Shown here: positions 1-2,874 of the stretch, piece by piece
Numbering within the stretch: the first letter of the stretch is position 1
Layout of the letters: every line of letters begins with the position of its first letter
Origin: Streptomyces laurentii
GTDB lineage: Bacteria > Actinomycetota > Actinomycetes > Streptomycetales > Streptomycetaceae
DNA: 64,000 nt
Direction: 5' to 3'
Assembly: GCA_002355495.1 (NCBI GenBank)
Contig: AP017424.1
Span: 1,860,001 to 1,924,000, forward strand
Position numbers and translations under genes: made by a program
Notes under the pieces: generated by a model
The model's input: only the letters and a program-made list of their open reading frames with translations
Database searches by the model: none
What the model was told of the DNA's origin: nothing

Positions 1-708
1 CTGGTCGGGACGCTTGTCCATGACGTGCGCGGCGACCCCGGCCTGCACGTTGACCAGCGCGATGTGGTGGGCGACCACGTCGTGCAGATCGCGGGCGATG
101 CGCAGCCGCTCCTCGGCGACCCGGCGCCGGGCCTCCTCCTCGCGGGTGCGTTCGGCGCGCTCGGCCCGCTCCCGGATGGCGTCGACGAACGCCCGGCGGC
201 TGCGGACCGCGTCGCCCGCCGCCGCGGCCATGCCGGTCCAGGCGAAGATGCCGAGGTTCTCCTGCGCGTACCAGGGGTTGGTGCCGAAGAACATCGCGCT
301 CCCGGTCAGCGCGGTCATGGTGACCAGGCCGAGACGCCAGGTGGTGGGCCGGTCGGTGCGGGAGGCGACGGTGTACAGCGCGATGACGGCGCCCATGATG
401 ACCGGCGCCGGGCGGGTGTCGCCGATCAGGTCGACCAGCGAGACGGCGGTCGTGGCGCCCAGCACCTCGATGGGCCGGTTCCGCCGCAGCACCAGGGTGG
501 CGGCCCCGGCCAGCATGAACACGATCCCGAACGTACTGGGCACCCGGTCACCGAAGGAGGCGCCGCCGTCGGGGCCGCCGTGCGGGTCGGTGAAGGACGC
601 GGCGAGCATGCAGCAGAAGACGAGGACGGCGAGCCCCGTGTCGAAGGCGAGCGGATGCGCCCGCAGCCGCTGCCGGACCCGGGGGAACAAGGCGCCGTCG
701 GTGCTCAT
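1..708 (-). CDS. Sensor histidine kinase, N-terminal part (runs off left edge)
   Basis: The first 236 codons of a two-component sensor kinase, read leftward out of the window. Residues about 20-150 contain several hydrophobic helices separated by short loops, an integral membrane sensor. A charged Arg/Glu segment (about 165-195) follows, then the phosphoacceptor motif LRIARDLHDVVAHH, whose phosphorylatable His is residue 209. This spelling is that of HisKA_3 kinases, which pair with NarL/LuxR-type response regulators, so such a regulator probably lies just outside the window (inference). The ATP-binding domain is not included. The ATG at 708 gives a short cytoplasmic N-terminus before the first helix; only a weak GGTGG precedes it. 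The signal sensed cannot be told. Confidence 0.88.
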   Translation of the reverse strand, partial: MSTDGALFPRVRQRLRAHPLAFDTGLAVLVFCCMLAASFTDPHGGPDGGASFGDRVPSTFGIVFMLAGAATLVLRRNRPIEVLGATTAVSLVDLIGDTRPAPVIMGAVIALYTVASRTDRPTTWRLGLVTMTALTGSAMFFGTNPWYAQENLGIFAWTGMAAAAGDAVRSRRAFVDAIRERAERAERTREEEARRRVAEERLRIARDLHDVVAHHIALVNVQAGVAAHVMDKRPDQ

Positions 709-1216: not shown

Positions 1217-2023
1217 CTACTTCTCGTAGCGCGGGTGGGACTGGTTCTGCGACGGGTTCTGCTGGTTCTGGCCGGTGGTGCCGGAACCGCCTTCGATGGC
1301 CTGCTGCTGCGCCGACGGACCGCCGGCCAGCTCGGCCTTCATCCGCTGGAGCTCCAGCTCCACGTCGTTGCCGCCGGACAGCCGGTCCAGCTCCGCCTGG
1401 AGGTCGTCCTTGGCGAGCCCCGACTGGTCGTCGAGCGCGCCGGAGGCGAGCAGCTCGTCGATCGCGCCGGCCCGCGCCTGGAGCTGCGCGGTCTTGTCCT
1501 CGGCCCGCTGGATCGCCAGGCCGACATCGCTCATCTCCTCCGAGATGCCGGAGAACGACTCGGCGATCCGGGTCTGCGCCTGGGCCGCCGTGTACGTGGC
1601 CTTGATCGTCTCCTTCTTCGTACGGAAGGCGTCGACCTTGGCCTGGAGGCGCTGCGCCGCGAGCGTCAGCTTCTCCTCCTCGCCCTGGAGGGTCTGGTGC
1701 TGCACCTCCAGGTCGCTGACCTGCTGCTGCAGGGCGGACCTGCGGGACAGCGCCTCGCGGGCCAGGTCCTCGCGGCCGAGCGCCAGCGCCTTGCGGCCCT
1801 GGTCCTCCAGCTTGGCGGACTGGCCCTGGAGCTGGTTCAGCTGCAGCTCCAGGCGCTTACGGGACGTCGCCACGTCGGCGACACCCCGGCGCACCTTCTG
1901 CAGCAGCTCCAGCTGCTTCTGATAGGAGTAATCGAGGGTCTCGCGCGGATCCTCGGCCCGGTCGAGGGCCTTGTTTGCCTTCGCGCGGAAGATCATCCCC
2001 ATACGCTTCATGACACCGCTCAT
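1217..2023 (-). CDS. pspA: Phage shock protein A (PspA/IM30/Vipp1 family)
   Basis: A 268-residue peripheral membrane protein of the ESCRT-III-like PspA/Vipp1 family. It binds stressed or damaged cytoplasmic membrane and stabilises it. The N-terminus (MKRMGMIFRAKANKALDRAEDP) is the amphipathic membrane-anchoring helix plus the first family helix. Residues about 30-225 are almost entirely charged heptad coiled coil, and the tail from about 235 is a low-complexity Gly/Gln/Ser/Asn stretch. Start ATG 2023 is used; an in-frame ATG at 2011 (MKRMGM) is an alternative with similar support. pspAA follows after 9 nt. A 25-bp inverted repeat at 2069-2093 sits 46-70 nt upstream and may be its operator. 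A DUF3043 gene diverges from it. Confidence 0.95.
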   Translation of the reverse strand: MSGVMKRMGMIFRAKANKALDRAEDPRETLDYSYQKQLELLQKVRRGVADVATSRKRLELQLNQLQGQSAKLEDQGRKALALGREDLAREALSRRSALQQQVSDLEVQHQTLQGEEEKLTLAAQRLQAKVDAFRTKKETIKATYTAAQAQTRIAESFSGISEEMSDVGLAIQRAEDKTAQLQARAGAIDELLASGALDDQSGLAKDDLQAELDRLSGGNDVELELQRMKAELAGGPSAQQQAIEGGSGTTGQNQQNPSQNQSHPRYEK

Positions 2024-2068
2024 GGGCTTCGCGCGCCCCCTTCTGACGGACTGGGCTCCAGCACTCCA

Positions 2069-2093
2069 ACATGAACCACACTACGGTTCATGT
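2069..2093. promoter_or_regulatory. Perfect 9-7-9 inverted repeat upstream of pspA
   Basis: The arms ACATGAACC (2069-2077) and GGTTCATGT (2085-2093) are perfect inverted repeats with a 7-nt spacer. They lie 46-70 nt before the pspA start in a locally less GC-rich patch. Position and symmetry suggest a dimeric repressor or activator site. It is not the Streptomyces SOS box, where GAAC and GTTC are 4 nt apart. It has the 7-nt spacing of an HspR HAIR element but a different sequence. Confidence 0.55.
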
Positions 2094-2271
2094 CTCCATT
2101 ACCGCACTGTTCGGGACCCGATGTGCTCCTCCCCAAGGACGAGTGCGCGCCGTGCGGCCTCCCGCCCAGGGAGTAGTGGATCCCTGTTCTCAAGGGCAGG
2201 GACGCCGTCCGTTAGCGGATCGTTCCCGCCCGCGCTGGGTCGTACACCCCGCACCACGTACCCTTGGCGTT

Positions 2272-2874
2272 GTGTTCCGTAGCCGTTCGAAGGATGAGAA
2301 GGCCTCCGCCCAGCAGGTGACGGCGGACCTCTCCAAGAATCCCCGTGACCCCGAGGCCCCCAAGGGCCGCCCGACTCCCAAGCGGAGCGAGGCGCAGACC
2401 CAGCGGCGCCGCGCGCAGTCCGCGCCGATGGACCGCAAGGAGGCCGCCAAGCGCCAGCGCGAGGCCCGCCGCGCGGACCTCGTCCGTCAGCGCGAGGCGC
2501 TGAACAGCGGCGACGAGCGCTTCCTGCCGGCCCGTGACAAGGGTCCGGTGCGGCGCTTCGCCCGTGACTTCGTCGACTCGCGGTTCGCGGTCGCCGAGTT
2601 CTTCCTGCCGGTGGCCGTGGTCATCCTGGTGCTGTCGCTCTTCGGCAACCGCGTCCCGCGGCTCCAGGACATCGCGCTGCTCCTGTGGGGCGTGCTGATC
2701 GTGCTGATCGTGCTCGACTCGATCGGCACCTGGATCCGTCTGCGCAAGCAGCTGAACACGCGCTTCCCGAACGAGCCGAAGCGCGGCGCGATCCCGTACG
2801 CGCTGATGCGTTCGCTCCAGATGCGCCGACTGCGACTGCCGAAGCCGCAGGTCAAGCGCGGAGAGCGACCCTGA
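2272..2874 (+). CDS. DUF3043 membrane protein
   Basis: A 200-residue protein of unknown function (DUF3043 family, actinobacteria-specific). Residues 1-95 are a highly charged cytoplasmic segment (FRSRSKDEKA..., TPKRSEAQTQRRR, MDRKEAAKRQREARR). Two transmembrane helices follow at about 110-130 and 135-155, then a basic C-terminal tail. The GTG at 2272 starts the conserved FRSRSK... sequence; there is no Shine-Dalgarno, so the mRNA may be leaderless. Upstream in-frame codons read through a non-conserved intergenic sequence. The stop overlaps or abuts the start of the methyltransferase gene, implying translational coupling. Confidence 0.88.
   Translation: MFRSRSKDEKASAQQVTADLSKNPRDPEAPKGRPTPKRSEAQTQRRRAQSAPMDRKEAAKRQREARRADLVRQREALNSGDERFLPARDKGPVRRFARDFVDSRFAVAEFFLPVAVVILVLSLFGNRVPRLQDIALLLWGVLIVLIVLDSIGTWIRLRKQLNTRFPNEPKRGAIPYALMRSLQMRRLRLPKPQVKRGERP

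Follow-up and report, generated by a model that had tools for sequence, protein, structure and literature searches.

The perfect 25-bp inverted repeat that precedes pspA in Streptomyces laurentii is tentatively read here, in preference to a DNA operator, as the stem-loop of a pspA leader started from an upstream sigma-E-type promoter (P1), the loop of which would also provide the -10 box of a second promoter (P2). Across some 100 genomes the complementarity of the two arms has been kept more than at non-partner positions, and G-T is tolerated on the pspA strand, as RNA predicts. Judged from these comparisons, the way in which the arms have evolved fits an RNA stem of the pspA strand better than an operator bound by the different regulator that had been suggested in a first-pass annotation of this DNA.

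The repeat would thus be put to two uses. As DNA, its centre would be the -10 box of housekeeping-type P2; as RNA, it would form a 9-bp stem-loop in the longer P1 message only, the presumed start of which lies about 100 bp upstream. Messages from P2 would be without the left arm, because transcription from P2 is expected to begin inside the right arm or immediately past it. A structured leader would then set the stress-induced message apart from the basal one, and the stem, if it forms in the cell, would most likely keep the part of the P1 leader that precedes the ribosome site folded in a defined way and protected, an effect that we infer; in this strain the arms have turned fully Watson-Crick. 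A fuller version, in which one DNA stretch is coded twice, with its centre as the basal -10 box and its flanks as the stem arms of the sigma-E-driven message only, these flanks being kept by selection where P1 is present and giving the stress message a stability or translation of its own, is possible, if doubtful.

The pspA locus

The window, by which we mean the whole stretch of 64,000 nucleotides that was analysed, contains the features listed in Table 1. The minus-strand gene order is pspA, pspAA, a HisKA_3 kinase, a LuxR-type response regulator (the next gene after the kinase, beyond the window edge) and an AcrB-type transporter. A LiaRS/VraRS-like two-component pair (HisKA_3 plus LuxR-type) starts two genes downstream of pspA, as would be expected of a psp locus under LiaR/VraR control, and in this respect the first-pass annotation, which had invoked a different regulator, was incomplete. 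Judged by position and type, the pair corresponds to AbrB1/B2 (SCO2165/66). No ClgR-like protein was found among the six neighbouring proteins scanned.

Table 1. Features in and around the pspA upstream region; positions are those of the window.
Feature	Position	Strand	Basis or remark
9-N7-9 inverted repeat, proposed P1-leader stem-loop	2069..2093	minus	Sequence, conservation, pairing counts
P2 -10 box TAGTGT (most likely), in the loop of the repeat	2078..2083	minus	TANNNT kept in the genus; by eye, in sister genera/families
Presumed P2 -35 region GTGCGG, 18-bp spacer, poor match to TTGACA	2102..2107	minus	Orthologue comparison
Conserved promoter block AACAGTGCGGTAATGGA, candidate activator site, single in genome	2095..2111	minus	Conservation
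P1, sigma-E-type promoter GGAACGATCCGCTAACGGACGG-CGTC	2201..2226	minus	Pattern, conservation, sco2168 entry in PMC6767563
Possible further ECF-type promoter GGGAG-N17-CGTCC	2137..2163	minus	Pattern alone; fixed spacing from P2
pspA (PspA/IM30 family)	1217..2023	minus	Pfam PF04012, E 1.5e-29
pspAA	929..1207	minus	Pfam PF22743, E 4.7e-38
Sensor kinase gene, 5' part, HisKA_3, AbrB2-like by position	1..708	minus	Cut by window edge
Divergent DUF3043 gene	2272..2874	plus	Pfam PF11241, E 1.3e-62

Two further elements were seen in the locus. A perfect 15-bp inverted repeat, CGCACGCGTGCCCCG/CGGGGCACGCGTGCG, read from the sequence at 797-840 between pspAA and the kinase gene, is perhaps a terminator that would keep the kinase operon apart from pspA-pspAA. 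At 2018-2044 (minus strand), where the ribosome site and start codon of pspA lie, AGAAGGGGGCGCGCGAAGCCCATGAGC is almost invariant in many family rows, a conservation that exceeds the needs of a ribosome site, and a GGGC here is able to pair with GCCC beside the start codon.

Sequence and rarity of the repeat

Read on the pspA strand, the repeat is ACATGAACC-GTAGTGT-GGTTCATGT (full 25-mer ACATGAACCACACTACGGTTCATGT) and spans the stretch 46-70 bp ahead of the pspA ATG at 2023. Its 9-bp arms are perfect, as the first-pass annotation had reported. A genome search for the motif, one of the checks which that annotation proposed, returned a single 0-mismatch match to the core ATGAACC-N7-GGTTCAT in 8,032,664 bp, so that no family of sites for the core was found in this genome. 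In the window the 25-mer pattern has one match at up to 3 mismatches, and the exact pattern has none in 100 shuffles; a pattern scan of GTDB contigs gave 0 matches, although records of this genome may have been left out there. In this strain the left arm carries an ATG that opens a 23-codon frame (2020-2091, minus strand), the stop of which overlaps the pspA start (ATGA).

That the repeat stands out in a GC-rich region was borne out for its A/T composition but not for its symmetry. It alone, among the 85 perfect 9-bp dyads with spacers of 0-20 in the window, has at least 5 A/T per arm (the mean in shuffles is 0.3, all 3 cases coming from one of 10 shuffles). However, perfect 9-bp dyads are frequent: the 85 compare with a shuffle mean of 26.5, and the 5 with an N7 spacer with a mean of 1.4 (10 shuffles). 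Because such dyads are common in the GC-rich window, the dyad by itself is only mildly improbable, and the weight rests on the place and evolution of the repeat and not on the dyad alone.

The repeat had also been said not to match the ClgR motif, and this was upheld: two patterns which we take to be the ClgR motif had 0 matches on both strands of 2024-2271, where the looser CGC-N5-GCG occurs once. The repeat likewise gave no match to GAAC-N4-GTTC and CTTGAGT-N7-ACTCAAG, presumably the LexA box and the HAIR (HspR) motif.

The two presumed promoters and the conserved blocks

Comparison of 30 orthologous upstream regions places the repeat in a strongly conserved block that runs from GAACAGTGCGGTAATGGA to CAGGGCCCGTACTGTGGGTTCTGT. 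The hexamer in the loop varies among relatives (TACTGT, TAGGCT, TAGTCT, TACACT, TAGGGT) with TANNNT kept throughout, and in sister genera and families TANNNT is present and the dyad absent, as judged by eye. Since TANNNT recurs in relatives, including those which have no dyad, its most likely role is that of -10 box in a pspA promoter of the housekeeping type, P2. A TTGACN -35 was not found for P2, which has GTGCGG instead, and there were 0 sigma-70 consensus matches in 1900-2500.

P1 takes the form GGAAC-N17-CGTC about 100 bp upstream of the repeat on the strand of the gene, and so has the -35 (GGAAC), the -10 (CGTC/T) and the 16-18 bp separation of a sigma-E promoter. GGAAC-N16-18-CGTC/T occurs in 27 of the 30 orthologous regions, lying 110 to 196 bp upstream of the P2 -35 region, and is missing from L018, L026 and L033; the strict P1 pattern is present in 63 of 101 rows. 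The first-pass annotation had stated that the site is not a SigE promoter, which is true of the repeat itself, but overlooks the sigma-E-type promoter that lies before pspA. The same block is listed for sco2168 (pspA), 262 bp upstream, in a sigma-E study of S. coelicolor (PMC6767563); sco2168 appears in the target table of that study, which validated 17 targets by S1 mapping or in vitro transcription. The conservation analysis in its Figure 8 spans 200 bp upstream of genes, and a pspA promoter at 262 bp would therefore fall outside it. As the S. coelicolor counterpart of P1 is a listed sigma-E target, sigma-E probably has a part in this region.

Between the two promoters, the CTACTCC block just upstream of 2137-2163 and the TCGTCC block both keep a fixed spacing from P2, and the region is possibly a further ECF-type promoter or a protein site. 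CTACTCC is present in 61 of 63 rows with P1 and in 32 of 38 without. The idea, taken from a consensus fold, that it acts as an anti-Shine-Dalgarno element of the P1 leader was set aside as an argument for a P1 RNA, as the block is about as common without P1 as with it.

The block AACAGTGCGGTAATGGA at 2095-2111 bears on whether the repeat is instead the site of the neighbouring LiaR/VraR-like regulator AbrB1, which would activate pspA as LiaR does liaH. An activator site overlapping a -10 box is unusual, and the 2095-2111 block suits better as a candidate site for the neighbouring regulator than does the repeat; no family of sites for it was found in the genome (1 exact, 3 more at 3 mismatches). 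The gene order pspA-pspAA-kinase-regulator speaks for AbrB1, as does the description of AbrB1/B2 as a VraRS/LiaRS homologue with a role in vancomycin resistance (PMC7581861). However, the available parts of the literature on AbrB1/B2 gave no AbrB1 binding site, and we consider AbrB1 binding at the repeat highly improbable.

Conservation of the repeat

A lack of conservation upstream of pspA in other Streptomyces had been named as grounds for rejecting the site. The exact core is found at pspA in only 1 of 199 genus genomes, the perfect form being this strain's own, whereas 306 of 392 have the surrounding promoter core when 2 mismatches at most are allowed. In a second motif-bearing genome (G296) the motif lies on another contig than the pspA promoter. 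An imperfect form, CAGGGCCC-GTACTGT-GGGTTCTG, is common at the same place, and near relatives have intermediates such as CAGGAACC-N7-GGTTTCTG; the common left arm CAGGGCCC is without the ATG seen here. A second, overlapping dyad (2078-2110, minus strand) reads ACAGTGCGG-N15-CCGTACTGT in relatives and CCGTAGTGT here. By Watson-Crick share among 390 geometries in the promoter block this dyad comes first, and the repeat third with 9-bp arms or second with 7- or 8-bp arms; the overlapping dyad showed no additional types of Watson-Crick pair.

Pairing of the arms across relatives

A G-T combination on the pspA strand makes a pair only if the RNA has the sequence of that strand. The arms of this strain are fully Watson-Crick and hence give no means of choosing between the strands, so relatives were compared. 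A set of 149 rows, made up of 107 loci and 42 forms among the matches listed (207 of 392 genomes matching), held 95 distinct forms, and in these the non-Watson-Crick partner cells on the pspA strand were G-T in 170 cases, A-C in 28 and other in 109. The core pattern fitted 41 of 91 family loci, and the pair counts cover these, the 50 others lying outside them.

Parsimony counting on a pspA tree was used to allow for shared descent (tree 1, 100 pspA rows; tree 2, 101 rows; the short loci L037-L096 and the other families L098-L116 stand outside both). On tree 1 the changes from Watson-Crick at the 9 partner pairs were 26.8 to G-T, 8.8 to A-C, 16.2 to other and 4.0 to another Watson-Crick pair, compared with 62.3, 59.1, 114.4 and 4.1, respectively, at the 72 non-partner pairs of the same columns. 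The proportion of draws with permuted partners that reached the observed value was 0.8% for the sense strand and 57% for the antisense strand, while the G-T share alone was matched by 15% of permutations. Tree 2 gave 25.0, 13.2, 18.7 and 2.6 (1.4% sense, 41% antisense), and, once the window's row and a doubled genome were removed, 22.1, 13.0, 17.7 and 1.8 (1.1% sense, 46% antisense). Some genomes are repeated (G009 has two rows in each tree and G187 two in tree 1, and several recur in the 149-row set); distinct forms were counted once in the form-based pairing and covariation counts.

These counts bear on a core-promoter account, in which promoter strength or the needs of the start site preserve the flanks of the -10 box and the symmetry is incidental, having become perfect here by chance. 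The many perfect 9-bp dyads of the window, the overlapping dyad that outranks the repeat by Watson-Crick share, and the sister genera and families which, by eye, keep TANNNT without the dyad are all in keeping with it, and the two-sided changes described below lean on the window's own row. Against it stands the partner-specific conservation seen relative to both non-partner pairs and permuted partners, which persists without that row, and we regard this account as somewhat unlikely.

Association of pairing with P1

Only a start upstream of P2 can yield an RNA that has both arms, and for this reason pairing was compared in rows with and without P1 (63 and 38 of 101 by the strict pattern, a split chosen after seeing the data; other genera of the family are among the P1-less rows). 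Seven or more of the 9 pairs were present in 62 of 63 rows with P1 (61 of 62 with G009 counted once) against 18 of 38 without, and all 9 in 41 of 63 (40 of 62) against 2 of 38. The 29 distinct P1-bearing forms had 90.4% of cells paired, a level reached in 0/500 shuffles (covariation 1/500), whilst for the 27 distinct P1-less forms the figure was 70.0% (151/500; covariation 149/500). Leaving out the window's row, the P1-bearing forms were still 90.1% paired (2/500), with covariation at 17/500. Two-sided compensatory changes in these forms were matched by 6/500 shuffles with the window's row; without it they number 3 pairs, matched by 174/500 shuffles (cells 71/500). On tree 2, G-T and A-C departures from Watson-Crick stood at 14.6:1.0 with P1 (11.9:1.0 without the window's row) and 10.3:12.5 without P1, a post hoc difference for which Fisher's test on rounded counts gave p = 0.002.

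This association should be considered with caution. Partner permutation confined to P1-bearing rows gives a fraction of 0.052 to 0.055, and the sense pairing of P1-less rows likewise exceeds permutation (0.036). P1 changes 5 times on the tree, giving 3 independent pairs only, too few for a test, and 33 of the 38 P1-less rows fall in one clade. L239 has P1 inside this mostly P1-less clade and has 9 pairs; in a nested P1-less clade L118 and L123 have 6 pairs each and L120 keeps 8. Counterexamples are L135 and L241, with 9 pairs and no P1, and L132, with 6 pairs and P1.

The same data weigh on the operator, in which a dimeric repressor on the dyad across the P2 -10 box and start site would block RNA polymerase until envelope stress. 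Such a site would account for the perfect symmetry in this strain, with arms flanking the -10 box, for the imperfect dyad of many relatives, and for the antisense reading of P1-bearing forms, which also pairs above shuffles (74.7%, 2/500; covariation 13/500). However, the departures from symmetry in P1-bearing rows are for the most part G-T on a single strand, not what would be expected of symmetric binding to DNA, and no regulon is apparent: the exact site is single in the genome, and CAGGNCC-N9-GGNCCTG has 0-1 sites in each of 6 genomes, below the 5-10 of a reversed control, in a search whose pattern also misses their own pspA sites. The half-sites, about 16 bp apart, would probably sit on opposite faces of the helix. 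We therefore think an operator unlikely.

Predicted folding

Folding predictions are neutral as to strand for this strain, the perfect repeat giving -11.6 and -11.3 kcal/mol on the two strands. The stem is present in the consensus fold of 27 leaders, but among 63 leaders folded singly only 13 have it in their best prediction, and a 117-nt stretch around the repeat is no more stable than its shuffles (z -0.55). No T run or terminator-like site follows the stem at the repeat, so an intrinsic terminator is not indicated, and the one Rfam match was far below cut-off and off the repeat.

Comparison with known systems

The comparison draws on passages of PMC3098853, PMC9739842, PMC11237479, PMC7581861 and PMC6767563, and little was found on pspA control in Streptomyces beyond sigma-E in a search that had most subscription papers outside its reach. 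The closest precedent is the sigma-E promoter of S. coelicolor pspA (sco2168), which has the same gene and promoter block, with its window counterpart at 2201-2226; no mention of P2, the dyad or a leader hairpin, the features described here, was found in the available account of sco2168 (PMC6767563).

The mycobacterial clgR-pspA-pspM-pspN system is likewise an actinobacterial pspA system tied to envelope stress, but here there is no ClgR-like neighbour among the six proteins, and the patterns that we take for ClgR are absent from the intergenic region. LiaRS-liaIH of Bacillus and VraSR likewise have a PspA-family gene near a LuxR-type two-component pair. In contrast to these, the pair described here lies downstream after pspAA, is a candidate for LiaR-type control by gene context, and is joined by a sigma-E-type promoter that would form a second input.

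More generally, a test that distinguishes the strands is advisable before an inverted repeat near a promoter is taken for an operator. Should the hairpin exist in RNA, a single gene would have stress and basal messages of different structure, owing to an element with a second role in the promoter. Stem-loops in the 5' leader that differ between alternative transcripts of one gene are of a known general kind, and the present case would likewise have its structure in the longer transcript only; it would differ from them in its loop, which is at the same time the -10 box of the promoter downstream.
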